A DNA stretch of 64,000 nucleotides from Methanococcus maripaludis C5 (GTDB lineage Archaea > AGJL01 > Methanococci > Methanococcales > Methanococcaceae). This document shows, piece by piece, positions 16,457-44,640 of this stretch. Under the pieces are notes generated by a model. The model did no database searches. It was not told the DNA's origin and was given only the letters and a program-made list of their open reading frames with translations. Each line of letters opens with the position of its first letter. Positions within the stretch are counted from its first letter, which is position 1. The translations under genes and the position numbers were made by a program. The stretch spans positions 186,001 through 250,000 of the forward strand of contig NC_009135.1 in NCBI RefSeq assembly GCF_000016125.1. The letters run 5' to 3'.

Positions 16457-16924
16457 ATGAAATATTCGTTTATTTTTTTAATTTCGGCAGTCCTTATTTT
16501 TAGTGGTTGTATCGAAAACAATATCACTACTGAATCAAACGAAACTTTATTTTTAAACAATACTTCATCCAAAAATCCGAATATTGGAGTAGAATTGAAT
16601 AATGGTACTGAATCCGACGATTCTTCTGAAATCGAATCGATATCATTTAAGATATTAGAATTTGGAATTTACGGGGATTCTTACAAGCATTATGAAAGCA
16701 GTATAATTGGGGATAAAACCATTATCGAAGTTTATATGGGTAAAAAATTAGGTTCTGACAATATCATAGAAATTAATTTGATAAAATTGAAAAATGGCGT
16801 ATTAATCGTTTACATCGAAGAAATAACGCCTGAAACCATTTCTGATCGGGCAATCGTCTATCCTTATGAAATAGTTGAAGTTAATGGGATTTACAATAAC
16901 GTTGAATTTAAAACAATCGAGTAG
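16457..16924 (+). CDS. Small lipoprotein of unknown function
   Basis: About 155 residues with a short signal (MKYSFIFLISAVLIFSGC) ending in a lipobox with Cys at residue 18, so a lipid-anchored surface protein is likely. The region after the cysteine is rich in N, T and S, then a beta-rich globular domain of about 100 residues follows that I do not recognise. ATG at 16457, just after the uppS stop, is preferred; the frame also has ATG at 16442. It is co-transcribed with uppS. Confidence 0.6.
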   Translation: MKYSFIFLISAVLIFSGCIENNITTESNETLFLNNTSSKNPNIGVELNNGTESDDSSEIESISFKILEFGIYGDSYKHYESSIIGDKTIIEVYMGKKLGSDNIIEINLIKLKNGVLIVYIEEITPETISDRAIVYPYEIVEVNGIYNNVEFKTIE

Positions 16925-16933
16925 TGATCAACT

Positions 16934-17734
16934 TTGTTAGAGATAATATTTCTTGGGGGCGGGGGGGGCCGATGGGAGAGCATAACTCAAGTAAAAGGTA
17001 CTGGCGGTTTTAGAATTCATTCTGAAGATATGAATATGCATATTGATTCTGGAGCAGGTGCATTAGTTAGGATGAATCAACTAGGGATAAATCCTTGGAA
17101 AACAGATGCAATAATTTCTACACACTGTCATCCGGACCACTATACTGATGCCGAAAACCTCATCGAAGCAATGACTAAAGGAATGACCAAAAAGCAAGGA
17201 ATTTTGATTGGTAACAACTCGGTTTTAAATGGAAGTAGCAGGTTTGAAAAAGGAATTTCAACCTACCACCAATCTAGGGTTGGTGAAAGGCATGTTTTAA
17301 AGCCTTATGATGAATTAAATGTAAAAACTTGGAAATTGACTGCGACAAAAACAAAACACAACGATCCTGAAACAATTGGCTGTAAAATAGAAACAGATGA
17401 TGGGTTAATCGGTTATACTTCGGATTCAGAATATATCGATTCATTAATTGAAGATTTTGATTGTATAGATTTTTTAATCGCAAACGTAATTCGCGTTAAA
17501 TGTCAAAAAGTACCTGGCCACATGTGTTCAAATGATATAATCGAAGTAGTAAATTCGATGAATAAAAAGCCAAAAATGCTCACAATGTATCACATGGGAA
17601 TGAAAATGACCGATCCAGATTCAGAAGCGAAATATATTTCAGAAAAAATTGATATTCCCGTAATTCCTGCTAAAATTGGTTTAAAAATAACAATGGAAAA
17701 TAAATCTTGTAAATATGATTACATTAAGTATTAA
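16934..17734 (+). CDS. Metallo-beta-lactamase fold hydrolase
   Basis: A 266-residue MBL-fold protein with the metal motif STHCHPDHYTD at about residues 61-71 and later histidine in TKTKHNDP and YHMGMKM. It is probably a hydrolase or phosphodiesterase of unknown substrate. The start is TTG at 16934 with GTGATCAACT upstream. The N-terminal glycine loop is encoded by a run of eight Gs at 16961-16968 right after five Gs, an unusual tract here. Function cannot be assigned further. Confidence 0.8.
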   Translation: MLEIIFLGGGGGRWESITQVKGTGGFRIHSEDMNMHIDSGAGALVRMNQLGINPWKTDAIISTHCHPDHYTDAENLIEAMTKGMTKKQGILIGNNSVLNGSSRFEKGISTYHQSRVGERHVLKPYDELNVKTWKLTATKTKHNDPETIGCKIETDDGLIGYTSDSEYIDSLIEDFDCIDFLIANVIRVKCQKVPGHMCSNDIIEVVNSMNKKPKMLTMYHMGMKMTDPDSEAKYISEKIDIPVIPAKIGLKITMENKSCKYDYIKY

Positions 17735-17750
17735 TCTAATTTTTTCACGT

Positions 17751-18146
17751 TTATTTTAAGTAACCCTGAAGTTCAAAGTGGTTATGCTGTTTTACAAGAA
17801 TTACTGGGGTTCCAGTATCGATTAAATCTTTTTTTAGTTTTTTATCGTTAGTACAGATTATTACATCCTTATTTTCCTTAGAATAATTTATAATCATTTC
17901 ATCTGCATATTTTCCGTTTGAATATTCGATAATTTCAAAATTTTTGGCATATTTTAGTGCTAAATTTACAGAAAGCTTTTCTTTTCCTTTAAATTCTAAT
18001 TTTAATTTTTCAAGTTCTTTTAAAACACAATCCATAATGAATATTTTGTAGCCTCTATCAATAGCGCTATTTAATTCGTATTCGAAATTTATGCCCTGTT
18101 TAAATGCATAAATTAAAAAGTTGGTGTCTGGAATTACTCGGTACAT
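17751..18146 (-). CDS. PIN-domain ribonuclease-like protein
   Basis: A 131-residue PIN domain of the Fcf1/VapC9-like group. Acidic residues of the nuclease site are visible: PDTNFLIYA at the N-terminus, ELEKLK in the middle, and TNDKKLKKDL near residue 100. It has no antitoxin neighbour and is downstream of rad50, 9 bases away, so it may be a housekeeping RNA-processing or DNA-repair partner rather than a toxin. Confidence 0.75.
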   Translation of the reverse strand: MYRVIPDTNFLIYAFKQGINFEYELNSAIDRGYKIFIMDCVLKELEKLKLEFKGKEKLSVNLALKYAKNFEIIEYSNGKYADEMIINYSKENKDVIICTNDKKLKKDLIDTGTPVILVKQHNHFELQGYLK

Positions 18147-18155
18147 TGTTTTAAC

Positions 18156-21137: not shown

Positions 21138-22269
21138 CAAACGCGCCCCCGTAGTAATTACCTTTAAAGTAGTCATTTACGTAAAGCAATGAATCTTCAT
21201 CGTTTTCTAAAAGCTTTTTATAGAGCCCATACACGAAATTTACATCCATTTCTTTGTTTTTAATATATTCCTGAAATATTTCTTCAATGCTGCTTTCATT
21301 AATATTAAATGATTCTTCAAGATTTTCATCAATCCTGCTTATCCTTTTGTAAAGTGTTAAATCAGTAATTTCATCGTTAAATGAATTAAATAAATTTTCA
21401 ACGATATCGCAATATAAAACTGGCTTTTTCTTTTCATTTTGAATATTTTGGAGCTCTTTAATTATTTTTTCGTAATCATTTTCATTTTTAATTCTTTTAT
21501 CGATCAAGAAATTCCTACATTCAACATCAATTTTTTGAATCGAGTTAATATCGAAATCTCCGCTTAAATCCCCTAAATAAAATCCTTTTCCATTTTGTTT
21601 GTAATCTTTAACTTCGCTAACTGACATGATATCAGTGGATCCTGCATAAGAAAATACAGAATTTCCCTCATTGATTGGTTTTAAGGCCCTTTGATGAATG
21701 TGACCTCCAGCAATATAGTTAAAATCTTCAGGAAAGTCCGTAACTTGCATTTCAAAGCTTTGCGGGATAAATGGGTTCACGCTTTGATGGAATAAAAGTA
21801 TCTTTTTTTTATAATTTTTAGAATCAAAACTGATTTTTTCCAAGTCTTCGTAAGTTTTTGGAATTTTATTTTGGGATACGTATTCAATTCCTCCAATGAA
21901 TACTTCGTTGTTAAAAACATGGGATTTATTTTTTCCAAAAGTTAACAAACTGTTTCCAAGTATTTTTTTCAAAATTCCAAACGGTTTTCCCTTCTGTTGG
22001 CTTTTTGGGATATCGTGATTTCCATGAATTAAATAAATTGGTATATTTTTTTCCTTTAATTTTAAAAAACCTTCCATTGTGCATCTTATTGCATTTACTG
22101 GAGGCTGAGGGCTTTCAAATAAGTCGCCGCTATGAATTACAAAATCAGGCCTTATCTCAATAATTTTATCGATACATTCTAAAAATGATTCGTAAATATC
22201 GTTTTCCCGCTCATCAAGGTTGTACTGGCGGTATCCTAGGTGATTATCCGCCATGTGAACAAATTGCAT
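21127..22269 (-). CDS. mre11: Mre11 nuclease
   Basis: A 380-residue metallophosphoesterase that is the nuclease partner of Rad50. The metal-binding motifs occur in order: MADNHLGYRQYN, VIHSGDLFESP, LIHGNHDIP, LLFHQSV and GGHIHQRA. GGAGCGAT precedes the ATG at 22269. The gene overlaps rad50 downstream. HerA and NurA, often next to it in archaea, are not here; instead the next genes upstream belong to a probable mobile element. Confidence 0.95.
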   Translation of the reverse strand: MQFVHMADNHLGYRQYNLDERENDIYESFLECIDKIIEIRPDFVIHSGDLFESPQPPVNAIRCTMEGFLKLKEKNIPIYLIHGNHDIPKSQQKGKPFGILKKILGNSLLTFGKNKSHVFNNEVFIGGIEYVSQNKIPKTYEDLEKISFDSKNYKKKILLFHQSVNPFIPQSFEMQVTDFPEDFNYIAGGHIHQRALKPINEGNSVFSYAGSTDIMSVSEVKDYKQNGKGFYLGDLSGDFDINSIQKIDVECRNFLIDKRIKNENDYEKIIKELQNIQNEKKKPVLYCDIVENLFNSFNDEITDLTLYKRISRIDENLEESFNINESSIEEIFQEYIKNKEMDVNFVYGLYKKLLENDEDSLLYVNDYFKGNYYGGAFDDY

Positions 22270-22403
22270 AATATCGCTCCAAAATTACTTAAGGTAACAT
22301 TCAACCGTATTTGTTAAATATTTTTTTGTACAATATACTATCTGTGGTTAAGTACAGCATAAAATAACATTCGTAATATCGATGCCATATTCATGGTGAA
22401 ATT

Positions 22404-22949
22404 ATGTCAAGACCCGTCATATATGTATATTGCAGGGGCGATGAACAAAAAGAAGAATTTACTAAAATGGCAAAAAGAAATGGTTTTGAAAATACTTCAG
22501 AATATGCCAGAACTAGCATGATAATGTATGATAAATTAAAAGATATTTTAGAAACCTTAATGGGATTTGACAATAAATTAAATTCAATTGTTGATAAATT
22601 CGACAGTATTGAATCAAACATAGATGAATCAAACAATAAACTTGTCAAATCTCTTTCAGATATGAATTCAGAATTAAAAGTGCTTTCAACAAATGAGAAA
22701 CGGCAAGATATGCTTTCTCAAATATTCAATATTATGTCAAGAATATACCCTCAAAGGTGTACCTTTGAAGAACTCGGCGAATATCTTGGAGTTCGTGAAA
22801 ATGAATTTAAAAGAAATATTTTCTGGGAACTTGTAAATTCCAATCCCATATTTGATGAATATGTGGAAAGGGATGGAAACACATTAAGAGCCCGTTTAAA
22901 TCCAAAAACTGGAAAATTCGGAATAGGTGAGATAGTTGAGGATTTATGA
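22404..22949 (+). CDS. RHH-like DNA-binding protein with coiled coil
   Basis: A 181-residue protein I do not recognise by name. The N-terminal 45 residues (VYCRGDEQKEEFTKMAKRNG, then SEYARTSMI) resemble a ribbon-helix-helix domain of the kind in plasmid MobC or CopG proteins. A helical coiled-coil segment spans about 50-105. The C-terminus (FEELGEYLGVRENEFKRNIF) looks like a winged-helix or helix-turn-helix. The gene overlaps the recombinase start by 14 bases, so it may be a DNA-binding accessory or directionality factor. This role is inferred from position. Confidence 0.55.
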   Translation: MSRPVIYVYCRGDEQKEEFTKMAKRNGFENTSEYARTSMIMYDKLKDILETLMGFDNKLNSIVDKFDSIESNIDESNNKLVKSLSDMNSELKVLSTNEKRQDMLSQIFNIMSRIYPQRCTFEELGEYLGVRENEFKRNIFWELVNSNPIFDEYVERDGNTLRARLNPKTGKFGIGEIVEDL

Positions 22950-23811
22950 TGGATTTAAATTTAAAGAACAAGACCAGAAAATAATTGATAACTATATGGC
23001 TTTCCGATCAGGACATTCAGATAAAACAGTTATAACAAACATTTCTGGAATCAGAATTTTTATGAGATTTCACAAAAACAAAACTTTTGATGAAATATCT
23101 CTTGAAGACGTGATAGAGTTTTACAGAAAACATGAATCTTCTGAAAACACAAAAATTCAATATCTTTCACGGTTAACCCTATTTTATAATTGGGGAATTA
23201 GTGAAAATTATTTTCTTAGAAATCCTGTTGAAAAGTTTCTCGTAACTTTAAGAAAAAGCAAAAAAGAACGGGAATATTTAACAAAAGAACAGACCAATTA
23301 TTTACTTTCAAATGTTTTTGAATATGAATATCGGTTATTTCTTATGTTTTTCCTGCATACTGGAGTTAGAAACAGCGAATTTAGAAATTTAAAAATCCAT
23401 GATGTAGATATGGATGAAAGAACCATTAGAATTTTAGGAAAAGGCAGGAAAGAAAGATATGTATTCATTGATAATGAATTGTATTCTTATCTTAAAATCT
23501 GGCTCATTCAAAGAGATTCAAAATTTCCAAAATCTGACCATTTCTTTGTAAACCGGCTTGGAAATCCTATACGATTAACACATCTTGTAAGTTTTACAGA
23601 TTATTTAAACGAAGTTTCAAAAAATAAAATAGGTTTTCGAATTACACCGCATATCTTAAGACATACATTTGCAACACGCTGCATAGATATGGGAATGGAC
23701 TTAAAGACCCTTTCTTTAATTTTGGGTCATGAAGACATAAAAACAACTTCGATTTATTTACACAAAAATAAGGAATCTTTAAAAAGAGAATTCTTACGTG
23801 TAATGAATTAA
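22936..23811 (+). CDS. Tyrosine recombinase/integrase (Xer-like)
   Basis: A 291-residue tyrosine recombinase with a SAM-like core-binding domain (about 10-100) and a catalytic domain. The active-site set is complete: Arg in HTGVRNSE, Lys in GKGRKER, His and Arg in HILRHTFATR, His in LGHED, and Tyr in TTSIYLH. The start is TTG at 22936 with GGTGA upstream. Overlap with the RHH-like gene indicates coupled translation. It could integrate the element or be an archaeal XerA resolving dimers; integration is favoured by the accessory genes to its right. Confidence 0.88.
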   Translation: MRIYDGFKFKEQDQKIIDNYMAFRSGHSDKTVITNISGIRIFMRFHKNKTFDEISLEDVIEFYRKHESSENTKIQYLSRLTLFYNWGISENYFLRNPVEKFLVTLRKSKKEREYLTKEQTNYLLSNVFEYEYRLFLMFFLHTGVRNSEFRNLKIHDVDMDERTIRILGKGRKERYVFIDNELYSYLKIWLIQRDSKFPKSDHFFVNRLGNPIRLTHLVSFTDYLNEVSKNKIGFRITPHILRHTFATRCIDMGMDLKTLSLILGHEDIKTTSIYLHKNKESLKREFLRVMN

Positions 23812-23847
23812 AATTATTCTTTTTTAAATTTTTAAGAGTTTTTAAAA

Positions 23848-23888
23848 GGTATAGACAAAGGAGTTGATATTTTACGCCTTGTCGTGTC
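23848..23888 (+). repeat. Imperfect repeat, copy 1
   Basis: The block contains GGTATAGACAA, AAGGAG, TTGAT and CGCCTTGT in that order, the same order as copy 2 at 24141. It has the AAGG...CCTT arms that could pair around a ribosome binding site, but no good peptide frame follows. It may be a decayed copy of the small-peptide locus or part of a recombination site. Confidence 0.5.
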
Positions 23889-24041
23889 AATATCCAAAAT
23901 AAACCTCGTCCAAACACATTCACACTACTGAATATGTATCTCACCTCAGAGGTTATATTATACTTTTCATAATCTGATATTTATAAATTACTTAATTGAA
24001 AAATTTCGGTAATGTTTTTTAAGATTTTTTACTTAAATAGG

Positions 24042-24067
24042 GAGTAAAAATCATTCAGTTTTTACTC
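24042..24067. repeat. Perfect 9-bp inverted repeat
   Basis: GAGTAAAAA at 24042-24050 and TTTTTACTC at 24059-24067 with an 8-base loop. No gene overlaps it. It may be a protein-binding site or RNA hairpin between the recombinase and the downstream small-peptide locus. Confidence 0.5.
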
Positions 24068-24114
24068 AATGTATGGCATTATTATTTATATTAAGTTTTT
24101 AAATGATAAATTAC

Positions 24115-24136
24115 CCCTTTCCCTCAAAAGAAAGGG
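24115..24136. repeat. Hairpin upstream of the small peptide
   Basis: CCCTTTC at 24115-24121 pairs with GAAAGGG at 24130-24136 across an 8-base loop. It lies directly before repeat copy 2 and the strong ribosome binding site at 24156-24163. Confidence 0.5.
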
Positions 24137-24140
24137 CCAA

Positions 24141-24187
24141 GGTATAGACAATAAAGGAGGTGATTTTTTTGACCGCCTTGTTAGTGT
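24141..24187 (+). repeat. Imperfect repeat, copy 2, spanning a strong Shine-Dalgarno
   Basis: This is the second copy of the repeat at 23848. It contains GGTATAGACAA, then AAGGAGGTGAT (perfect 16S complement), then CGCCTTGT. The arms AAGGAGG and CCGCCTT can pair with one mismatch, which would hide the ribosome binding site in a hairpin. Confidence 0.5.
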
Positions 24188-24243
24188 TGGCAGTTGTTTT
24201 ACCCGTAATAGTTAAAATAACTGTTAAAATATATTTGAAATAA
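24169..24243 (+). CDS. 24-residue hydrophobic peptide with a strong ribosome site
   Basis: TTG at 24169 follows AAGGAGGTGAT, the best ribosome site in the window. The frame encodes 24 residues, MTALLVLAVVLPVIV then a basic end KITVKIYLK, and stops at TAA. It is a single membrane-spanning helix with a positively charged tail, the form of many type I toxins and small membrane peptides. The site can be masked by local pairing. Length alone gives weak statistical support, so translation must be shown. Confidence 0.4.
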   Translation: MTALLVLAVVLPVIVKITVKIYLK

Positions 24244-24254
24244 ACTAATTATTT

Positions 24255-24293
24255 GGTAAGGGTCTACTTTTTAGTAGAACACTACCCCTTACC
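24255..24293. repeat. Nested hairpin after the small peptide
   Basis: GGTAAGGGT at the left arm pairs with ACCCCTTACC at the right arm with one bulged C, and inside it TCTACT and AGTAGA form a second stem. It lies 11 bases after the peptide stop. It may be a transcript end or an RNA-stabilising structure. Confidence 0.5.
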
Positions 24294-24332
24294 TATAACC
24301 AAAATTTACAAAATAACTTCAAATACTCTTTT

Positions 24333-24722
24333 TTATTCAATAACTTCAACTTCTCCAAATCCTATCATCTGGAAACTTTTCATCTCTCCGTCTTCAAAAT
24401 AATAAACAGGAATATCTATATCAAATTCTTTTATTATTTTTCTTCCTTCTTTTTTTCTTATCAAACTCTTTTCTAATTCGTATAATCTGATGGAATGCAC
24501 GCCTTTTTCAGTAAGTGAATAATAAGATTTCGTAATTATTAAATATTTCCGTTTTTCGTGCTTTAAAATTAAATTACAAGACTCTAATTCATTTAATATA
24601 CTTTTTAAATAACTATTATCTATCTTAATTTCTTTTTTAAGACTGGAGTATTCAATTTTTCCATCAACTAACTGATAAAGAATTTCTTTTACGTGATTTT
24701 TAGCTAACAATTCAAGTAACAT
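24333..24722 (-). CDS. Winged-helix regulator, paralogue 1
   Basis: A 129-residue protein whose first 90 residues form a winged helix-turn-helix (MLLELLAKNHVKEILYQL, SSLKKEI, SYLKSILNELES, then a wing with YYSLTEKG). It shares layout and sequence pattern with the 130-residue protein at 27287, although the C-terminal 40 residues differ. It is last in a minus-strand run with the membrane-anchored and HEPN genes. It probably represses or activates element genes; the target is not known. Confidence 0.65.
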   Translation of the reverse strand: MLLELLAKNHVKEILYQLVDGKIEYSSLKKEIKIDNSYLKSILNELESCNLILKHEKRKYLIITKSYYSLTEKGVHSIRLYELEKSLIRKKEGRKIIKEFDIDIPVYYFEDGEMKSFQMIGFGEVEVIE

Positions 24723-24754
24723 ATTTGACCCTTAAAAGTTTAAAAATTAAATTT

Positions 24755-25696
24755 TTATTCAATGATTAACTTTTCATTGAATTTTGATGACTGCATTATT
24801 TTTATTCCGTAAACTTCATCCCAAGTTAAATTTATCGAATATTTTGTACTGCCCTGATGATTATAGTCGTAATTATATTTCAAATATACATATTCTGGCT
24901 TATCATAACTGCTATCTATTATTAAAGACCTTGTTTCAATTAATATATTCCTAACTTCTTTTAAAATGTCTTCTTCGTCCAGATAATTAGTTCTTTCAAA
25001 ATATAGGTATAATGTACTTTCATTCAGTAGCGATCCTTCGTAATAATGTGAAAAATCACTTTCTTCAAATCCGGTATCAATATCGTTTGTAAGGGACAGT
25101 ATGACCTCTTCATCGTCTTCAACTATTTCTTTTTCAAGGATTAAATCCCCATATTTTAATTTATAACCTACTGATCCAGTATATTCAATATGGTACCATC
25201 TTGAATTTTCTGGAAGTTCATAGACCAATATCCCGTAAGTTTTACCGCCATTTTTCAAAGTTACCGATTTTAAAAGATCCGGTATATTGTAGTTAAAATA
25301 ACTTGGAGTATATGACACATTATCTACTACAACCTTGTAATTATACGGATTAACTTTAAATTCGTCATATCCATAATTTTCAATTTCTAAACTAACTATC
25401 ATAAACTCCTTATCAGGATTTGCATATTTTGTAAACCTGAAGCTATCATAGAGATAATTAAAATAATATGAAGACACCGCACTACGGTTTATTAAAATAT
25501 ACTTTTCACTAACTGCTTTTACATTTTCAGAGTTATTCTGGTTACTAGTTGAAACAGTAGATGAAACAATATTTTCTGAATTTGAATTATTTTCGGCTGG
25601 AGCAATCATTAAAAGACCTGCAACGGTTACAACTCCACCTAAAACCATTAAAAAAATAATTCCAAATAAAATAACTAATTTTTTACGAATTGTCAT
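24755..25696 (-). CDS. Membrane-anchored protein with DUF4352-like domain
   Basis: About 313 residues. One N-terminal membrane helix (LVILFGIIFLMVLGGVVTV, about residues 7-25) is followed by an N/S-rich linker and an extracytoplasmic beta-sandwich that looks like DUF4352 (EFMIVSLEIENYGYDEF, then YGILVYELPEN). A second domain after residue 200 is not recognised. ATG at 25696 follows AAAGGGG. A perfect 14-bp palindrome at 25727-25740 lies near the expected transcription start. Function is unknown. Confidence 0.55.
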   Translation of the reverse strand: MTIRKKLVILFGIIFLMVLGGVVTVAGLLMIAPAENNSNSENIVSSTVSTSNQNNSENVKAVSEKYILINRSAVSSYYFNYLYDSFRFTKYANPDKEFMIVSLEIENYGYDEFKVNPYNYKVVVDNVSYTPSYFNYNIPDLLKSVTLKNGGKTYGILVYELPENSRWYHIEYTGSVGYKLKYGDLILEKEIVEDDEEVILSLTNDIDTGFEESDFSHYYEGSLLNESTLYLYFERTNYLDEEDILKEVRNILIETRSLIIDSSYDKPEYVYLKYNYDYNHQGSTKYSINLTWDEVYGIKIMQSSKFNEKLIIE

Positions 25697-25726
25697 CAAA
25701 ACCCCTTTTTTATCATTTTAAACCTG

Positions 25727-25740
25727 AATGGATATCCATT
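25727..25740. promoter_or_regulatory. Perfect 14-bp palindrome, probable operator
   Basis: AATGGATATCCATT is an exact palindrome about 30 bases upstream of the membrane-protein gene and just downstream of a TATA-like minus-strand element at about 25752-25765. The core GGATATCC recurs at 27798-27805 in the promoter of the plus-strand operon. The position suggests repressor binding by one of the two winged-helix proteins, which is inference. Confidence 0.5.
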
Positions 25741-25852
25741 TGTTAAAAATCGTATAAATAATTTAAAGGTTTAATCGTGGATTTTATTAAAATTTAAAAA
25801 AAGAGTAATTTTTGAATTTAATTGGAATGGTTATTAAAATTTAAAAATATGG

Positions 25853-27178
25853 TTATTTTTCTGAAATTTCCCCTTTCCAATTCTTTTTTAATTCTATGAC
25901 ATGTTCAATGGTCTTTTGAATGTTTTCTAAATTATTACCATTTTTGGTTAAATATTCATAAATTGTTTTTATTTCATTAAGAGAATACGAATTTAACTCT
26001 TTTATTAAAAATTCAATCAGATTATCAACACAGTATTTTAGTGCATTTCTATCATATTGGGAAATAGATCCGCCTTCATGAATAAAATTGTTTCTAACAG
26101 TATACAGATTTTCAATAACATGGGCATATAATGGATTTCTTTCATTAAATAATGCTTTTGAAATTTTAGGGATCATGTCATGTTTTCCTATATCGGACAC
26201 CATTGTTGCTCGTTCCAATGCCACCCATAAATTAAAAAAGGAATCCGTCTTTTTATCTTGATAAACCCCGCAAGCATAGTTTGTAAATATTTCTTCTAGT
26301 TTTTTTTGAATATCCGGACGTTTTGAATTATAGAATTGGATTAAATAATTTAATTCTGTTTCATAAAACTTTTCAATAGGTATAATACAGTCTTTTGGTA
26401 TTCTTTTACGGGTTATGTCTCCCACAAATACAGTAACAAATTGGGTACCTATTGTTTCTATCATTATTTGCGGATATATTGGGAATATGGCTTCGGTTGG
26501 GCCTTTAAGTGTTCTGTAGCTTGAATTTTTGGTAATAACATATGCAACCATGCCAATGAATAAATTTTGAATTTTACGTGCAGTTAGGCATGCATGGGCA
26601 TCTGTCTGACTATTAACAGTTATTTTTAAAAATTCACTTTCATCGAAATTCACATTTATTTCACATTGCGGGTCTATTTCATGGGCTTTTTTGATACTTT
26701 CGTTTAATTTTGGCTGATTTATAATCCCTTTTATCTTCCTATATTTCACAATTTCTGCACAAAAATTTCTACATTTTATTTTTTCAATGGTGAATTCAGT
26801 TTTTAAATTTAGTGGAATGTACATTTCATACAGAGTATATTGCTTAAACTCACTTTTTAACGATTTAATTTTTAAATCAAGAATATTTTTGAATTCATTA
26901 TAATTATTCAAGTTTTTAGTTTTTAGTTCAGTTAAAACATCAAGAATAAGTTCAAAATTGTTAATATCACTTGAAATCATCGTACAGTATTTTAAATCCG
27001 TTATTTTTTTAGAAATATTTTCATCTTTGAGTAATTCATAATTTAATAATGATAAATAAGTTTCAAATTCAAAAAGGCTTTTATCTTTTCTAATTTCGAG
27101 CTTATTTTCATGAATATAAGTTAAATCTAAAATTTTGTTAATAATTTTAGACATTTCATTATCTGGAAGTTTCTCCAT
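25853..27178 (-). CDS. Apea-like HEPN-domain protein
   Basis: About 441 residues. The C-terminal 150 residues match the pattern of Apea-like HEPN domains: NLWVALERATMVSD-type helix, then RNNFIHEGG, an R-x4-H motif about 75 residues from the end. HEPN motifs of this form are RNase active sites in many abortive-infection and toxin systems. The N-terminal 280 residues are mostly helical and not recognised; they may be a sensor. ATG at 27178 with GGTGTGGAA upstream is preferred to an earlier in-frame start at 27235. It lies between the membrane protein and a winged-helix gene on the same strand. Confidence 0.6.
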   Translation of the reverse strand: MEKLPDNEMSKIINKILDLTYIHENKLEIRKDKSLFEFETYLSLLNYELLKDENISKKITDLKYCTMISSDINNFELILDVLTELKTKNLNNYNEFKNILDLKIKSLKSEFKQYTLYEMYIPLNLKTEFTIEKIKCRNFCAEIVKYRKIKGIINQPKLNESIKKAHEIDPQCEINVNFDESEFLKITVNSQTDAHACLTARKIQNLFIGMVAYVITKNSSYRTLKGPTEAIFPIYPQIMIETIGTQFVTVFVGDITRKRIPKDCIIPIEKFYETELNYLIQFYNSKRPDIQKKLEEIFTNYACGVYQDKKTDSFFNLWVALERATMVSDIGKHDMIPKISKALFNERNPLYAHVIENLYTVRNNFIHEGGSISQYDRNALKYCVDNLIEFLIKELNSYSLNEIKTIYEYLTKNGNNLENIQKTIEHVIELKKNWKGEISEK

Positions 27179-27286
27179 TTCCACACCTTTAATAAAATTT
27201 CCCTCAATCAATAAACATAAATATCCAATATTCAATCAAAATAAACCTTAATTTCAATAAAAACAAAAAAATCAATATCAATTTTA

Positions 27287-27679
27287 CTATTTTTGAAAAC
27301 TGTTATTGCTCATAAAGTTGTTATTTATGTTTATATTTCCAATATTTTGGTTATTGTTACCGATAATGCAGGTTGTTAAATCATTTGACTTTTTTTCTTT
27401 TTCCTTTACCATTTTGTCTTCTTTTTGATATATTTCAACAGCCATTTTTCCCAAATTTGTTAAACTATAATAATTCTTAGGAATTCTTCCGTCGTCGTCT
27501 GTTTCTTCAGTTCTTTTGTTTACAAGACTTTCTTCCTGTAATTCTGATAAAATTCTACTTAAATTACTTTTAGGTTTATCTAATTCCTTTTGAATTTGAC
27601 CGAAGTATAATTCATCGTATTCATTCAAAAGCATTAGAATTTCTTTTGCATTTGACTTGGATAAAATTTTTAGGAACAT
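27287..27679 (-). CDS. Winged-helix regulator, paralogue 2, with Asn-rich tail
   Basis: A 130-residue protein with an N-terminal winged helix (MFLKILSKSNAKEILMLL, IQKELDKPKSNLSRILSEL, then a wing RIPKNYYSLTNLG). A lysine-rich linker leads to an unusual asparagine-rich tail containing IGNNNQNIGNININNNF. Such repeats could form a short beta-solenoid or bind a partner. It is the first gene of the minus-strand cassette and faces the plus-strand operon across a 225-base promoter region, so it may control both. Confidence 0.65.
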   Translation of the reverse strand: MFLKILSKSNAKEILMLLNEYDELYFGQIQKELDKPKSNLSRILSELQEESLVNKRTEETDDDGRIPKNYYSLTNLGKMAVEIYQKEDKMVKEKEKKSNDLTTCIIGNNNQNIGNININNNFMSNNSFQK

Positions 27680-27783
27680 TTTTACCCCTTTTTAAGTTCC
27701 GTAATTATTTAATGTTATATTTTATGTTTCCATTTGAATAAATTATAATATTATCAATATTTCATCCGTTACTAATTTTGGAA

Positions 27784-27853
27784 ACATTTATATAGGCGGA
27801 TATCCACAATTATTATTGTTACCAATACTGGAAACGGTTAATAAGTTGGTAAC
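27784..27853 (+). promoter_or_regulatory. Promoter and operator of the plus-strand element operon
   Basis: A TATA-like ATTTATATAGG at about 27786-27796 is followed by GGATATCC (27798-27805) and a perfect 8-bp inverted repeat, GTTACCAA at 27818-27825 and TTGGTAAC at 27846-27853. The repeat covers the expected start site. TGGAAAC also occurs three times here: 27726-27732 (minus), 27779-27785 and 27829-27835. These are the expected features of a repressed promoter. Confidence 0.55.
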
Positions 27854-27904
27854 AACCCACCCCTCACTAAAAAAATACTCACAAAAACCAAAAAAGAGGC
27901 GATA

Positions 27905-28033
27905 ATGAAAAAAGAAAAAATCATCGAAAAAACGGTTAAACCTTCCGGAAACACCGGACACATAACCTTACCTAAAAAATACATTGGAAAAAAGGTTAAA
28001 ATCAAAATTCAAGGTGAACACAAAGATGATTAA
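27905..28033 (+). CDS. DUF2080/AbrB-like small DNA-binding protein
   Basis: A 42-residue protein reading MKKEKIIEKTVKPSGNTGHI, then TLPKKYIGKKVKIKI. The pattern (GNTGHITLPKKYIGKKV) matches the DUF2080 family of transposon- or plasmid-encoded AbrB/SpoVT-like proteins. AGGCGATA precedes the ATG. Its stop touches the next ATG (TAAATG), so the two are translationally linked. It heads the plus-strand operon. Confidence 0.65.
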   Translation: MKKEKIIEKTVKPSGNTGHITLPKKYIGKKVKIKIQGEHKDD

Positions 28034-28351
28034 ATGACTCTAAAAAGACTCGATATTTCAATTGTACCCAAAATCATTACAATTCGAGAAATAGGCGAAA
28101 TTGAACTAAAAGATGTTCAAAAATTCAACATTACGGGCGAAAGGCTCAACGAAGAAACAAAAAAATTTGTAAAATGCATAGTACAACACGAAGAAGAATT
28201 TTATCAAATGCTGTTACCTGACCACAATTTTAAATTTTATGAAAAAATCGAGGTTAAAAGAAATTTAACCGGAATAGAAATCAAAAGACTCGAAAAAAGG
28301 GTGAACGAACATGAAAATACCGGATTTATCAAAAATACCAGCAAATGTTGA
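28034..28351 (+). CDS. Unknown 105-residue element protein
   Basis: I do not recognise this 105-residue protein. It begins at the ATG right after the DUF2080 stop and ends 41 bases inside the following gene. The sequence is charged with a mixed alpha/beta look (EIGEIELKDVQKFNITGER) and has no membrane segment. The tight overlaps on both sides support it as a real gene in the operon. Confidence 0.5.
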   Translation: MTLKRLDISIVPKIITIREIGEIELKDVQKFNITGERLNEETKKFVKCIVQHEEEFYQMLLPDHNFKFYEKIEVKRNLTGIEIKRLEKRVNEHENTGFIKNTSKC

Positions 28352-28787
28352 ACAAAAAGCAGGACTAGTGACCGTAAAATTTATTGCAGGTTCTGAAGCT
28401 GTCGATGTACTCGACCCTGCAACAGGTCAGCCAATCAAAACCAAAGAAGGCTGGAATAAAAAAGACTGGGTTGTTTCAAAAAGACAGATGGGAAAAGTTA
28501 CATTAACAAAAGGAACCGGTTCTACAAAAAAATACATGGAATTAACTTACCTCGAATTTAAAGAATTAACTGAAATGAACAGTAAACCCCAATCAAAAGA
28601 GTTAATCCAATATTACTCGATGGTTGAAGCACTCTACAACATGAAAAATCTCGTTGCAGCAGGGGCCAGTAAAGACTTCATAATGAAAAATGTTAAGGAA
28701 CTCGGATACCCTGAAAGTCTCGCTAAATTAATCATATTTGGCGAAATTGTTTCAGATGAGCCAAAAAATGAAGAAATAAAGGCTTAA
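28311..28787 (+). CDS. Unknown 158-residue element protein
   Basis: A 158-residue protein of no recognised family. The first 90 residues look beta-rich (AGLVTVKFIAGSEAVDVLDP, then KVTLTKGTGSTKKYMELTY) and the rest is helical. It lies directly before the putative Rep, where filamentous phages and small plasmids often place a DNA-binding protein, but no such motif is proven. A GGTGAACGAAC site lies before its ATG inside the previous gene. Confidence 0.5.
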   Translation: MKIPDLSKIPANVEQKAGLVTVKFIAGSEAVDVLDPATGQPIKTKEGWNKKDWVVSKRQMGKVTLTKGTGSTKKYMELTYLEFKELTEMNSKPQSKELIQYYSMVEALYNMKNLVAAGASKDFIMKNVKELGYPESLAKLIIFGEIVSDEPKNEEIKA

Positions 28788-28813
28788 AAAATCCATTTTT
28801 TAACTTTTAAAAG

Positions 28814-30160
28814 GTGTCTTCTATCAAACCTCCAGCACTCACAGAAGAAGAGCACAAAAGAGTTTCTTATGAAGCCGTAAGGAAAAGAAACCTCCTTGAA
28901 AAAATCAAGGAAAACAATCAGAAAAGACCGCCTACCCTTGCATATCCCAGAATATCACTTGATAGGGTAATGTTTTCAGTATTTTCTCATGACATTTTCA
29001 AATTTGTTTATGATAACAAATACGACCCCGCAGAAATACAGCACCGGATAAACGGTGTTTTGCAAGACCTCAAAGAAAATGGAATTGAGAATTTAGATGT
29101 CGAACTTCCAAAAAAACAGCATATGAAATACAGAAAAGATGTTTTCATAAAATACGAGCAGTTCAAACAGAATATGATTGACCATAAGGGATATTCTAAC
29201 GGTCTTCACTTCTCTTTATGCGATTTTGAAGGTGAATCTATTTTCTGGATTACTATATCGATGAGAGAACCTCATTTAGCTGTTGTATATATTAATTTCC
29301 AAAAATACTACCGCTATAAAAATAAAATCGATAAACCTGTTGGCGGATTCTTCGACACTAACTTTTTAGATATTTCTTATGATAATCGGGATAAAATATT
29401 TAATGATTTTGCAAAATTATTCCTCAGCGTAAAGAATGAGATAAAAAAGGCATATAAAAGTCTTATTTATCAACTATTCGGCTACGATTTGGAAGAAGTT
29501 GATGTTATACCCTCAACTGTGGAAATACCTCTTGAATATTTAGGAAATGACGTTTCTGAATACGAATGGCTGACAGATGAAGCTGTTTGTAAGACCGTTT
29601 TAAAATATACTGACCTTACACACACGATTTACTTTAATAAGAACTGGAAAAAGCTTTTAATTCAAATGAAGCTTTACCAAAAAGCGGCAGGAATTGCACG
29701 TTTAGAGCTTACAGTTCATAAAAATTTCGCATCTCATTATTTCTGTGAAACTGACCTCGAAACACTAAAAGACAAGATTAAAATGTGTATCGATGATGTT
29801 TTAGCATACTATGAGTTATCACTTCACGAAATAAAGCCAGTAAAACTCGACCATGACGAAATAGTCGAACAAATTGCCCTTTCCATGTCACTTGAAAAAG
29901 AACTTTTAATGACCCTGATTTATAATGACGTTGGCGAACTCACATTTTCAGCAGATAATCAAGGTTTAAGAACTCGACTTTTAAAGCGTGGATTGATTGA
30001 AAAGGGTGACAAAAGGGGAGTTTATAAAAAAACTAATCTTTTGAGCTTCTTAAAAGCCTCTCTTGGTAAATACTTTGTTTGTGAAAAATGCGGATTTTTA
30101 ATGATGAAAAAAGCTCGTGGATATGTCTGTCCAGTTTGCAGTAACAAAAAGAGTTTTTGA
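28814..30160 (+). CDS. Putative replication initiator (Rep-like) with zinc ribbon
   Basis: A 448-residue protein, the largest soluble one of the operon. The middle (IPLEYLGNDV... and KLYQKAAGIARLELTVHK near residue 290) recalls gene II/X-type and related phage or plasmid replication proteins. A C-terminal winged-helix-like region (LLMTLIYNDVGELTF to KTNLLSFL) is followed by a CxxC...CxxC zinc ribbon (CEKCGF, CPVCSN). No HUH motif is obvious to me, so the catalytic class is open. The start is GTG at 28814 with only a weak site. Confidence 0.4.
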   Translation: MSSIKPPALTEEEHKRVSYEAVRKRNLLEKIKENNQKRPPTLAYPRISLDRVMFSVFSHDIFKFVYDNKYDPAEIQHRINGVLQDLKENGIENLDVELPKKQHMKYRKDVFIKYEQFKQNMIDHKGYSNGLHFSLCDFEGESIFWITISMREPHLAVVYINFQKYYRYKNKIDKPVGGFFDTNFLDISYDNRDKIFNDFAKLFLSVKNEIKKAYKSLIYQLFGYDLEEVDVIPSTVEIPLEYLGNDVSEYEWLTDEAVCKTVLKYTDLTHTIYFNKNWKKLLIQMKLYQKAAGIARLELTVHKNFASHYFCETDLETLKDKIKMCIDDVLAYYELSLHEIKPVKLDHDEIVEQIALSMSLEKELLMTLIYNDVGELTFSADNQGLRTRLLKRGLIEKGDKRGVYKKTNLLSFLKASLGKYFVCEKCGFLMMKKARGYVCPVCSNKKSF

Positions 30161-30174
30161 AATCAAGGGATAAA

Positions 30175-30228
30175 ATGACTTTCAAACTATCAAAAGCGTT
30201 TAAAAATGTTCCATTTGTCAAAGGTTGA
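30175..30228 (+). CDS. Possible 17-residue peptide
   Basis: ATG at 30175 after AAGGGATAAA opens a 17-codon frame (MTFKLSKAFKNVPFVKG) that ends inside the ribosome site of the next gene. It is basic and amphipathic. It may be a real small peptide or only a leader that couples translation; length alone cannot decide. Confidence 0.25.
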   Translation: MTFKLSKAFKNVPFVKG

Positions 30229-30232
30229 TAAT

Positions 30233-30391
30233 ATGGACATTGAAGTTTACAGCCATATCAAAAATGGCATTTTAATTTTTGAAATCGAAATTCCTGCAAA
30301 TGACCGACTTACAAATCCAAAAATGATTATGGAAGCTGTAAGCGTTTTAAAAAGATTTGCAGAAGAAAAAAGGGAAAAAATGTTTTTTTAG
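30233..30391 (+). CDS. Unknown 52-residue element protein
   Basis: ATG at 30233 with AAAGGTTGAT upstream encodes 52 residues (MDIEVYSHIKNGILIFEIE to KREKMFF). An earlier frame start at 30206 lacks such a site. No family is recognised. It is soluble and charged, between the Rep-like gene and the next small gene. Confidence 0.45.
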   Translation: MDIEVYSHIKNGILIFEIEIPANDRLTNPKMIMEAVSVLKRFAEEKREKMFF

Positions 30392-30398
30392 GGATATA

Positions 30399-30749
30399 AT
30401 GATTGCATTTATAACAGAAATTCCAAAAAATAATCATATTTTCGAAGACAGTAGTGTGTATCATGTAAATTCTAAATTAAAAGAAATTGCAATGGATAGA
30501 ATAAAATATATGATGGATTCATGCAAATTTGATGATTCAATTGAAAATATACTTGATTCTAACAATATCGCTTATGATTCAGATGATATCGATATAACTA
30601 TTTCTGTTGGAATCGAAACAAGAAAAAGACACGTTTTAGGTCTTAGATTAGTTAAAAAATCGGGTTATATAACTTATAAAATGATTTCTCAAAATTCTTC
30701 AAAATATGATTTAAACCCGGTTGTGAGTTGGGAAGATGAAGCATTTTAA
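30399..30749 (+). CDS. Unknown 116-residue element protein
   Basis: ATG at 30399 after AGGGATATA gives 116 residues beginning MIAFITEIPKNN. The region ISVGIETRKRHVLGLRLVKK suggests a small alpha/beta fold, but I recognise no family. It overlaps the membrane-protein gene by 14 bases, which supports a shared transcript. Confidence 0.5.
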   Translation: MIAFITEIPKNNHIFEDSSVYHVNSKLKEIAMDRIKYMMDSCKFDDSIENILDSNNIAYDSDDIDITISVGIETRKRHVLGLRLVKKSGYITYKMISQNSSKYDLNPVVSWEDEAF

Positions 30750-32190
30750 AAAACTATTTTTCATCCTGCTTTTTTTAATTCCTTTCGTAAATGCAGATGA
30801 AGGAGAAGACTATTCAGATGTTTCAAGTTATGAAGCTTTAAATTCTTTTACTGATTCTTCAGGAAGTGATATTTACACGGTAGACGGCTGTGATATAGTT
30901 TCTTTTAAGTATAATACAACTACAAAAGAGCTTAACTTTGAGATTTATAACTCAAATTCTCACTCTGTTACAATGACCGCATATGATATTTATTCTAAAA
31001 GGAATACCGAGATTACTTTAGACCCCGGAAGGAACTATAAAGAATTTCACTCAGTTCAATTAAAATCGGGTCGTTTCTGTTTTGTGTTTTGGAAAGAGGG
31101 TGGAAACATGGCAATTGTAAAAGAGTTTGCAACTCCTTTAACTTTGCAGCAGAAATTCTATATTGCTTCATCAAATGCTTTAGGGTTTCTAAGTCTTCAG
31201 TCCGGTTTTTTATTTGCCTTTTTGGTAGTATTTGGACAATTAACAATTAAAGAACTGCTTTATAAAAGAATGTTAATTGATTACTGGAAACAAGGCTGTT
31301 ATGTTTTAATTTTGGGCTTTGTAGGGTTAATTGCTGCAATGCTTTCAATTAAATATGGCTTACCTTTCAGTATGTACGAAGTATTAACGATTGAAAAATG
31401 GAAATTTGTTTTAAAATTGCCGTTTTTTGATTTCTCAAACTGGAACTTGCTTTATTTAATATCTTATTTCAACTGGATATACCCATTAGCTTTAATAATC
31501 GGTTATTCGTTAGGTTTTAAGCTTTCCAAGCCCGAATACATCAACATTTGGTACATGAATTTTAAAAGTAACATGAGAGATATTAAAATCCTTCCTGTAT
31601 CTTGGGAAAGAGATATTGCTCGTGTTCGATGGGATGATGGAAAAATTAGGGTTTTGAGAATGCCACACGTAAACGCTACTAAGTATATAAATCCAATGAC
31701 TGGAAACCTTGAAGACCTTTATGAAGTTACTTCATTTGAGCTTCACGATACTGAAGAAAAAGTTTACAATGAATCAACTGCAATCAACAGGATTTTAACA
31801 TGGTTTGAAAAATTCGTTGATTGGGTAAAAGATTATTTTGGAAGGATTCACGGGGTTGTAACAATAGATTTCAGTAAAATAATGAATAAAACGGTTGCTG
31901 AATCAATATTTTTACACGATAACCTTGAAACAATTGCCGAAGAAGTTAATAACTGGGCTAAAAAGTTCTATAATGAAAAATATCAAAAATCAATTAAAGC
32001 TCAGGAGTTTACGGCTGTGGCAGTTGAGAAAATTGCAAGAGATTTAAACCCTCTCGCAATGGAAAATGCAACAGACATTCTCGGAGATATTGAAGATTTC
32101 TTTGATAAAGGAATAGACATATTCAAAAAAGATGAAAAGGATGATATTAATGAGCCTGACGGAGATGGAACTGAAAATACTGGTCAATAG
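30736..32190 (+). CDS. Signal-peptide multi-span membrane protein, candidate virion or surface protein
   Basis: A 484-residue protein with a signal peptide (MKHFKKLFFILLFLIPFVNA), an extracellular domain to about residue 135, three membrane helices near 147-172, 188-208 and 236-262, and a large cytoplasmic C-terminal part of about 220 residues ending in an acidic tail. The order of signal peptide, ectodomain and membrane helices just before a P-loop ATPase recalls minor coat or adsorption proteins of filamentous viruses, or conjugation proteins. No family is recognised, so the role is inferred. Confidence 0.5.
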   Translation: MKHFKKLFFILLFLIPFVNADEGEDYSDVSSYEALNSFTDSSGSDIYTVDGCDIVSFKYNTTTKELNFEIYNSNSHSVTMTAYDIYSKRNTEITLDPGRNYKEFHSVQLKSGRFCFVFWKEGGNMAIVKEFATPLTLQQKFYIASSNALGFLSLQSGFLFAFLVVFGQLTIKELLYKRMLIDYWKQGCYVLILGFVGLIAAMLSIKYGLPFSMYEVLTIEKWKFVLKLPFFDFSNWNLLYLISYFNWIYPLALIIGYSLGFKLSKPEYINIWYMNFKSNMRDIKILPVSWERDIARVRWDDGKIRVLRMPHVNATKYINPMTGNLEDLYEVTSFELHDTEEKVYNESTAINRILTWFEKFVDWVKDYFGRIHGVVTIDFSKIMNKTVAESIFLHDNLETIAEEVNNWAKKFYNEKYQKSIKAQEFTAVAVEKIARDLNPLAMENATDILGDIEDFFDKGIDIFKKDEKDDINEPDGDGTENTGQ

Positions 32191-32419
32191 TTTTATGTCC
32201 TTTGAATATGTTTCAAGAGATAACGATATTTTAATGTCTGCGATGGCAAAAGTGAGTAAAAAAATTAGAACAATATGGATGGCTAACCGACTTAGAAGAC
32301 TCGTTTCTTTAAAACCCGAACTTTACCCGATATATATAAAAGCAACAGGGGATAAAAACTCATTTAAGAGCTTTATTTCAGCACTTGAAAATGAAAGAAT
32401 GAAAGAGGAAACGAAATAA
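32150..32419 (+). CDS. Unknown 89-residue element protein
   Basis: ATG at 32150, after GGATGAT inside the membrane-protein gene, encodes 89 residues of mostly helical, basic sequence (MSLTEMELKILVNSFMSFEY, KKIRTIWMANRLRRL). It ends at TAA that overlaps the next ATG. No family is recognised. Confidence 0.5.
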   Translation: MSLTEMELKILVNSFMSFEYVSRDNDILMSAMAKVSKKIRTIWMANRLRRLVSLKPELYPIYIKATGDKNSFKSFISALENERMKEETK

Positions 32420-33054
32420 TGGTTAATTCGGCTTTATATGGTGAATACGATTTAAGTTTGATGAAAGAGCATACTCTTGCAAAAAGTTTAGGTTTTGATG
32501 TAGAAATTGATTTTTCAGATTCGGAAATATCTATACTTGAACTTGTAGATATGTATAAGCCCTATAATGAACATCTTTCTATCTGTATCGATGGAAAACG
32601 TGGTTCTTTTAAGACTACTCACTTAATTGCAATGCATGAAGAATGTAAAAAATTAGGTTTAAAATCCGTATTTATCAAAACAAAAGCCGACTTTGAAAAA
32701 TTAAAAGGTAGAAGGGATTTAGATATCGTATTTATTGATGATATCGCTAAATACTTCTATAAAAGGGATGGAGCAACTAAAATAAATAAAGCATTTGCGA
32801 AGATTTTGCAGATGGTAAGAACTATTGTTCCTGTTATTATTGCAACTACTCCCGATTTATCTCTTTTAGATAAAGATGGTAGGGCTTTCTTTATTGAAGC
32901 TTACGTTTTAAGAAAAGGAACTATTTCAATGATGGGTGTAAATATCGGAGTTGAAGCCCCAAATATTGAATTTTATAATGGATTTAAGGACAAAGAACAT
33001 GATACTCGGTTTAAAGAATTTGATGAACTTGTAGGTATTATTTCACAGAATTAA
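32419..33054 (+). CDS. P-loop ATPase, Zot/pI-like by layout
   Basis: A 211-residue ATPase. Walker A reads GKRGSFKTT near residues 57-65, Walker B reads DIVFIDDIAKYF near 110, and a sensor-like IIATTP is at about 150. The Walker B followed by YF(Y)KRDG is like the morphogenesis ATPases (Zot, gene I) of filamentous viruses, and such a gene closes the structural block there. It lacks the membrane helix usual in gene I proteins, and packaging or partition ATPases remain possible. Overlap by one base with the previous stop (TAATG) shows a shared transcript. Confidence 0.5.
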   Translation: MVNSALYGEYDLSLMKEHTLAKSLGFDVEIDFSDSEISILELVDMYKPYNEHLSICIDGKRGSFKTTHLIAMHEECKKLGLKSVFIKTKADFEKLKGRRDLDIVFIDDIAKYFYKRDGATKINKAFAKILQMVRTIVPVIIATTPDLSLLDKDGRAFFIEAYVLRKGTISMMGVNIGVEAPNIEFYNGFKDKEHDTRFKEFDELVGIISQN

Positions 33055-33464
33055 TTTATTCGCGTTTTTTATTTATTTTGCAATTATTTATATATTCTCG
33101 AAACAATCTATTATACGGGGATGGTCACCCAGATAAATTCGGAATATGGTTTCTAGTGGTCTTTTGAATATCGAGATGCATTTAATTATTACCGTTTAAA
33201 CTTGTTTTTTCAGTCATATATTAATTATTTCTATTTTAAACCTAGCCTGTTCTTTTTACACTTATTAATCTTTATTCTATACTTTATTCGTATTTTATCT
33301 CATAATTACTTTCTATTTTTACCTTAAAATCTTCTTCTGAGGTATGGCATGGAGTAAGTAAAACTAATTCATATTCTAAAAATTTAAAAAATAATTTACA
33401 ACTAAATCGTTGCTTTAAACATATCCAAATCAAATAAAGCGATTAATTTAAAACATTCTTAAAA

Positions 33465-33809
33465 ATAAAATCAAGTTACTTTCTATTTTTTACACGTTTC
33501 TGTAACGTTTCGGAGTTATCCCAACCCGAAGGGAATAAAATCAATCTGCCCAAAGCACAAAAATCGCCATTAGGCGACATATACCCAAAGGGTATATAAG
33601 CCATGGCTTGACCTCTGGAAATTCCTAATTTGCGTGGGCTACCGTCGAAAAACCGAACTCCCTAAAAATAAAATCAATCATCGGTTTTTCAGGTAGGTCT
33701 GAGCAGGTCAAGACCTGCGAAAGCAAATGAACCATTTGACCGGAGTGTTAAAATCCAAGCTTAATTAAATGAATTGCGACAGCAATTCTTAACTCCGATA
33801 AAATCAATC
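33465..33809 (+). repeat. Iterated ATAAAATCAATC motif
   Basis: The 12-base motif ATAAAATCAATC occurs at 33535-33546, 33668-33679 and 33798-33809, with a shorter ATAAAATCAA at 33465-33474. Spacings are 70, 133 and 130 bases. The second and fourth are followed by near-identical sequence (TGCCcAAA-GCAC and TGCCaAAAgGCAC). The third sits in the loop of a 10-bp hairpin (33647-33656 with 33681-33690). This resembles iterons of a plasmid origin. Confidence 0.6.
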
Positions 33810-33920
33810 TGCCAAAAGGCACTTTTCGAAGGGCGAAGCCCTTCCCCCGGTGTGGTAGCCCGACACCCGTGTCGGGCGTAACCCCCTGCCCCGAAGTTAT
33901 GAAGTTCCGCCCGACAGGGC
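33564..33920. repeat. Cluster of perfect hairpins
   Basis: Perfect stems read in order: TCGCC/GGCGA (33564-33577), ATATACCC/GGGTATAT (33579-33597), the 12-bp palindrome at 33598-33609, GAAAAACCGA/TCGGTTTTTC (33647-33690), GCAGGTC/GACCTGC (33703-33718), CAAATG/CATTTG (33724-33738), GAATTGC/GCAATTC (33771-33788), TGCC/GGCA (33810-33821), GAAGGGC/GCCCTTC (33828-33844), GCCCGACAC/GTGTCGGGC (33858-33877) and GCCC/GGGC (33909-33920). Confidence 0.75.
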
Positions 33921-34230
33921 TATTACTAGATAGTCATACTTTGTAAGTGAAATTAGGCGATAACTCAAAAAAAGCCCTAATTAAAAACCCTTAAAAATCA
34001 TATTGTTTTAATCGTTTAATCTGTTAAACTCTTTATTTTAAAAAAATAATCGTTCTATAAATATCCGTTTTCCTGCCGTTTTAGAGCTAACGAAGACCAT
34101 TGAATATTGTCAATGTTATAAACTTAAAATATCGTAATACTGTTTTTATCATGTATCACACGACATACATAATTATATAGTTTTTTATATCATTGTACCA
34201 TCAATCCTTTTAAAATAAAATGTGAAAACC

Positions 34231-44566: not shown

Positions 44567-44640
44567 TGGGGCCGCCGAGATTCGAACTCGGGTTGCACGC
44601 CCCCCAGACGCACAGGATGGCCAGGCTACCCCACGGCCCC
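44567..44640 (-). tRNA. tRNA-Pro (GGG)
   Basis: The minus strand gives acceptor GGGGCCG paired with CGGCCCC, a D arm starting GGGT, an anticodon loop CTGGGGG with anticodon GGG, and a T arm CCGAG-TTCGAAT-CTCGG. The discriminator is A at 44567 and CCA is not encoded. The anticodon stem has several G-U pairs. It lies inside the operon between rpoN and rpoK, so its ends must be cut from a mRNA. Confidence 0.92.

Follow-up and report, generated by a model that had tools for sequence, protein, structure and literature searches.

The tract at 33465-33920 of the window (the whole 64,000-nt stretch of Methanococcus maripaludis C5 DNA analysed here) very likely encodes a functional RNA, and the family to which it belongs, borne by integrative elements of Methanococcaceae, is previously uncatalogued. 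A structured RNA had been offered in the original prediction as an alternative, and homologous copies with compensatory changes now strongly favour it. The tract is probably a stand-alone non-coding RNA of the element's life cycle, about 430 nt in length and possibly longer at the 5' side. In this reading, an integrative element of Methanococcus, plasmid- or virus-like in kind, carries the RNA gene on its + strand, and transcription would start from an element promoter. The transcript is predicted to fold into a three-way-junction core and a 3' domain made up of two neighbouring hairpins, whose conserved loops, GNNA and UAAUAG, probably bind a partner. The RNA would act while the element is excised or replicating, a state that brings RNA, attP and integrase operon next to one another.

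The tract was first singled out as a GC-rich, hairpin-dense and gene-free region in AT-rich DNA, and all three features were borne out. GC content was 0.452 in 33465-33920 vs 0.322 in the whole window (45% against 32%), with AT-rich flanks of 0.24-0.27. Ten perfect hairpins (stem of at least 5 bp, loop of 3-8) were counted in the same interval, compared with a mean of 2.3 and a maximum of 6 in dinucleotide shuffles, none of which (0/300) reached ten. Folding of 33465-33945 yielded -155.1 kcal/mol, with z=-7.0 on the + strand and z=-4.8 on the - strand, and 0/100 shuffles folded as well; the structured part overruns the tract, reaching about 33936 and possibly 33990. Between 33054 and 34222 the ORF list had no entry of at least 60 aa. 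Among the RNA copies we found no shared open frame, the longest open stretch per frame being 22-83 aa and no frame being open beyond chance length across all copies; the absence of a shared open reading frame argues against a protein-coding gene. Judged from its reading frames, the tract is non-coding, and the lack of coding conservation in relatives is in line with the RNA reading. A search of the tract for tRNA and tmRNA genes returned none. It should be added that ARAGORN called a tRNA-Pro elsewhere in the window (44567-44640, - strand), which overlaps an ORF, was not confirmed with Rfam and is probably spurious.

Positions of the features discussed below are collected in Table 1.

Table 1. 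Features of the RNA and of its host element (positions in the window)
Feature	Position	Strand	Basis or remark
Structured RNA, full-length type A core, 13 helices	33510..33936	+	five homologues, covariation, z=-7
5' hairpin CCC-GAA-GGG, then recurring linker AUAAAAUCAAU	33525..33533	+	invariant in 6/6 copies
Two hairpins, UCGCC/GGCGA and AUAUACCC/GGGUAUAU; GAAA/AAA loops	33564..33597	+	
Three-way-junction core, closing stem UUGC/GCAA	33629..33727	+	helices 5-8
Core long arm GGGCUACC/GGUAGGUC, internal loop, large loop holding AAAAUAAAAUCAAU	within 33629..33727	+	
Core arm GCAGGU-CNNG-ACCUGC; conserved junction GAAA	within 33629..33727	+	
Hairpin GAAUUGC/GCAAUUC, absent in e3 copy	33771..33788	+	helix 9
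Second AUAAAAUCAAUCUGCC module and hairpin GAAGGGC/GCCCUUC	33797..33844	+	
3' domain hairpin GUAGC...GCGUA	33858..33880	+	helix 11
3' twin hairpins: GCCC(GNNA)GGGC and adjoining hairpin, loop UAAUAG (UACUAG in e1)	33909..33933	+	alignment A5; G003, G006
Possible RNA promoter TTTATATATTC and 5' end hairpin GGGGAUGGUCACCC	33087..33130	+	suggestive only
Tail motif, consensus CTAAAAAAATAAGCGTTTTCC	34038..34058	+	127 nt after 3' hairpin in e1
attL, left attachment site	22314..22330	.	empty site G001/G002
attR, right attachment site	34173..34189	.	empty site G001/G002, 17-bp overlap
c0, 181-aa protein, always adjoins integrase	22404..22949	+	in 6/6 full-length-RNA elements
XerA-like tyrosine integrase	22936..23811	+	in circle just past attP from RNA, same strand
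c3, 448-aa zinc-ribbon protein	28814..30160	+	alignment A4; order-wide search
c5, P-loop ATPase, last gene before RNA	32419..33054	+	

The tract had been placed beside a mobile element; comparison with empty sites puts it inside one. In two relatives, G001 and G002, the DNA left of 22330 and that right of 34173 are contiguous with an overlap of 17 bp, which sets the limits of the integrated element, designated e1, at about 22314-34190 (~11.9 kb). These limits came from the empty-site comparison, a simple search for terminal direct repeats in e1 having returned none long enough. The tract ends ~240 bp inside the right end of e1, with the integrase at the left end, and it is missing from the empty sites of both relatives, which again is in line with the RNA reading.

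A DNA search across the genus added five full-length copies with 74-81% identity, of which G000 (the genome of the window) has two, G001 one and G002 two, so that G000 carries three full-length copies at unlinked sites, and four counting all. A search with c3 (alignment A4) exposed five more elements of the family, and reduced RNAs were recognised by eye in e7 (G000) and e11 (G023). The 3' domain model, R2, recovered both and matched G003:C1:1656304-1656394 (E=1.7e-6) and G006:C4:141740-141826 (E=3e-4). Altogether, at least ten copies were present in Methanococcaceae elements, six of them full-length (about 430 nt) and four divergent or reduced; elements e1-e6 carry type A, e7 and e8 carry type B with a 5' part of its own, and the copies of e10 and e11 are divergent. 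The family is element-borne, and all six full-length copies reside in elements with c0, integrase, c2, c3 and c4.

Searches with the covariance models covered 36 genomes, one per species, and gave no convincing copy in G004, G005 or the 28 genomes of other genera, G023 excepted. Since a G005 relative with the same backbone has no detectable copy, the RNA does not appear essential to this type of element. Weak R2 matches in G019, G015 and G010, without the UAAUAG twin where shown, were not counted; in G019 and G015 a recurrent hairpin, ACCCUACUCCA-AGUGAGUAGGGU followed by GUAU, that weakly matches the 3' domain model was seen, possibly an unrelated dispersed repeat. Phage and plasmid records, IMG/VR and prokaryotes at large yielded no copies; 16 pattern matches in genome contigs and two in viral contigs were dismissed as chance (model E about 0.3 or worse). 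On these searches, all known members fall within one archaeal order. With Rfam 15 covariance models, the tract gave no match at gathering score, and at E<=1 none was obtained in seven loci (the full-length copies and the plasmid), with GOLLD, ROOL, OLE and HEARO among the models. The open-access literature, most subscription papers being outside reach, describes no such Methanococcus RNA.

The six-copy alignment A2 supported a consensus fold of 73 pairs in 13 helices, of which 27 pairs show two-sided changes that keep pairing among the six type-A copies. Paired cells amounted to 94.6% vs 83.2% in shuffles, and all five measures were reached in 0/500 shuffles. Sliding the partner by 1-3 columns lowered pairing to 31-43%; the structure having been predicted on the same sequences, this control leans its way, and more weight goes to the two-sided changes. 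They include ten pairs in helices 5-7 and 6/11 pairs in helix 11. Conservation reaches furthest across the family in the 3' twin hairpins, in which 5/7 pairs have two-sided changes across eight sequences (alignment A5; shuffles 0/500). Here GCCC(GNNA)GGGC and UAA(UAAUAG)UUA keep their pairing via GCGC/GCGC, GCAC/GUGC, CUCU/AGAG and UUA/UAA, the G003 copy having GCAC/GUGC with the loop GGCA. Among 63 invariant unpaired columns read on the + strand, 34 were A, 13 U, 10 G and 6 C. The + strand was taken as the likely transcribed one because the GNRA/GNNA-type loops and the A-rich conserved linkers fit only that strand.

The 5' end of the RNA is uncertain: a possible promoter at 33087-33097 would give a transcript of up to about 880 nt, and a stretch resembling 33087-33130 lies upstream of the RNA in e6 (80% match over 46 nt). 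Furthermore, e3 and e6 have, upstream of the RNA, an extra 5' module of ~200 nt, alike in both and with the same CCCGAAGGG-AUAAAAUCAAU signature, a pattern that suggests module duplication within the RNA.

The type-A elements e1-e6 (12-32 kb) share c0, the XerA-like integrase, c2 (HTH regulator), c3 and c4, and most also contain a P-loop ATPase (c5) and a membrane protein (c6). In e1-e6, e10 and e11 RNA and integrase occupy opposite ends of the element and share a strand, so that in the excised circle the order becomes RNA -> attP -> c0 -> int. Moreover, the att repeat starts 256-267 bp past the 3' hairpin in 8/9 elements measured (e1-e6, e10 and e11) and 199 bp past it in e7; the value for e1 was taken from the empty-site comparison, and the repeats of e4 and e6, at 10-11 bp, are short enough to have arisen by chance, albeit falling at the expected place. 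The tail motif CTAAAAAAATAAGCGTTTTCC recurs at +141/142 from the 3' hairpin in six other copies and is probably part of the attP arm; a duplicated att was ruled out by its single occurrence per element. The att sites examined, those of e1, e2, e3 and e5, are not in tRNA genes.

Such near-fixed spacing could reflect a cis or DNA-level role in recombination. As RNA and integrase operon meet only in the excised circle, one may propose that the RNA is coupled physically and functionally to the attachment site and reports or controls the integrated or excised state, which would constitute RNA-based integration control in Archaea; we put this forward tentatively and consider it rather unlikely as yet. 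The near-fixed link to attP makes the hypothesis on function a testable one, M. maripaludis being genetically tractable and one genome holding four copies.

Three other explanations were weighed against a stand-alone RNA. According to the first, the tract and the T-rich 33180-33480 form the element origin, and the RNA is a pre-primer similar to ColE1 RNAII or a copy-number controller for c3. A gene-free AT/T-rich stretch of ~300 bp does precede the RNA in e1, e4 and e6, and c3, which we infer to be a candidate replication protein, is present in every RNA-bearing element, although its identity was not clarified by searches of PDB (no significant match) and PHROG (two marginal single-member matches only). 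However, a long AT-rich tract is missing ahead of the RNA in e2 and e5, c3 is several kb from the RNA in most elements, iterons were not found near the RNA, and locations of ori vary in the nearest archaeal plasmid study (PMC6972569), all of which makes a replication-control or primer RNA improbable.

A cis-acting leader is the second: on the circle, transcription would run from the RNA through attP into the c0-integrase operon, with the RNA as a 5' leader that integration would sever, thus switching the integrase. The common strand, the order from RNA through attP to the operon in e1-e6, e10 and e11 and the near-constant distance to att all agree with such an arrangement, but most elements have TATA-like sites between att and c0, the operon's own, a leader that exceeds 700 nt and spans a recombination site would be out of the ordinary, and in e8 the RNA is located upstream of c3 instead; we therefore judge it quite improbable. 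Selection on folded DNA, as an attP accessory region or single-strand origin, is consistent with the significant folding of both strands, with a wobble-pair test favouring neither strand (7 vs 8 cells) and with the near-fixed distance to att, yet thirteen helices, conserved A-rich GNRA/GNNA-type loops and invariant junctions are typical of RNA and scanning of element proteins turned up no HUH relaxase, so that this explanation is highly improbable.

The original prediction had likened the tract to the ORF-less replication regions of plasmid pURB500, and the comparison did not sustain this. The resident 8,285-bp plasmid of G000 (C2), which we take to be pURB500/pMMC501, gave no match to the tract by blastn or either covariance model, and the repeats in its gene-free regions (ACACGATATCGTGT, TCGAACATTTT) are of a different sort. 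What the two share is a stretch with repeats and without genes on a mobile element of Methanococcus. Structured plasmid or virus RNAs that act in replication or packaging include ColE1 RNAII and phi29 pRNA; ours resembles them as a structured RNA of a plasmid- or virus-like element and differs in having no Rfam match.

Closer in layout are GOLLD and ROOL, large ornate RNAs of bacterial phages and prophages whose function is unknown (PMC12286853). The Methanococcus RNA looks like an archaeal counterpart of these, analogous and not homologous. In common are a large, ornate, non-coding RNA on mobile elements, which some members lack or have in reduced form, and a conserved 3' with a variable 5' region, as described for GOLLD (PMC12286853); the comparison covered the large conserved fold, the non-coding nature and the carriage on elements, all of which were found. 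GOLLD and ROOL have also been seen to form oligomers. In contrast, the Methanococcus RNA is archaeal, shorter (about 430 nt, against 659 nt for ROOL env-120 and over 800 nt for many GOLLD; PMC12286853), has no Rfam sequence or covariance match and is linked to the attachment site instead of tRNA islands. The described large ornate mobile-element RNAs that we found, GOLLD and ROOL, are bacterial, and the occurrence in archaea of an RNA that is laid out alike but not homologous suggests repeated evolution of such RNAs in both domains.

Regarding the elements themselves, a 676-aa protein of e2 matches the solved PT26-6P structure (2wb7, E=4e-14), and its homologues occur in e4, e5, e9 and e10 and were not found in e1, e3 and e6. 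By this homologue, several RNA-bearing elements would fall within or next to the pT26-2 plasmid family of Thermococcales and Methanococcales, the placement relying on t26-6p out of the seven core genes (t26-5p, 6p, 7p, 11p, 13p, 14p and 15p; PMC6972569). Both groups comprise integrative Methanococcus elements, whereas e1 has no pT26-6p homologue and the RNA-bearing backbone has a XerA-like integrase and att sites outside tRNA genes (e1, e2, e3 and e5). In the survey of that family, M. maripaludis C5 is entered only as a 'remnant' without detectable limits, and a term search of the paper found no mention of a structured RNA (PMC6972569). The elements at G001:C1:626480-653555 and G000:C1:1212190-1244155 combine a pT26-6p homologue with a non-tRNA att site.

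CRISPR arrays were observed in two sister elements. In e7 (G000:C1, about 729-746 kb; oriented interval 16609-21765), an array of 29 repeats (CTAAAAGAATAACTTGCAAAATAACAAGCATTGAAAC) adjoins the type-B RNA copy, with apparent Cas1 and Cas2 genes, read by eye; the pT26-2-like e10 (G006:C4) has a 36-repeat array (oriented 29233-31863) and the RNA at its far end. Spacers of both had only short partial matches to sister elements. An RNA anti-CRISPR mimicking the repeat was considered by eye against the repeat of e7 only, which ends in AAGCATTGAAAC, and was rejected, a similar string appearing just in the e2 and e4 copies and not being conserved. Finally, e2 and e5, different elements from two species, share both their chromosomal site and their att sequence, CTCGATGATGATTGT, and in each an ArdC-like gene, so named by eye, points away from the RNA.
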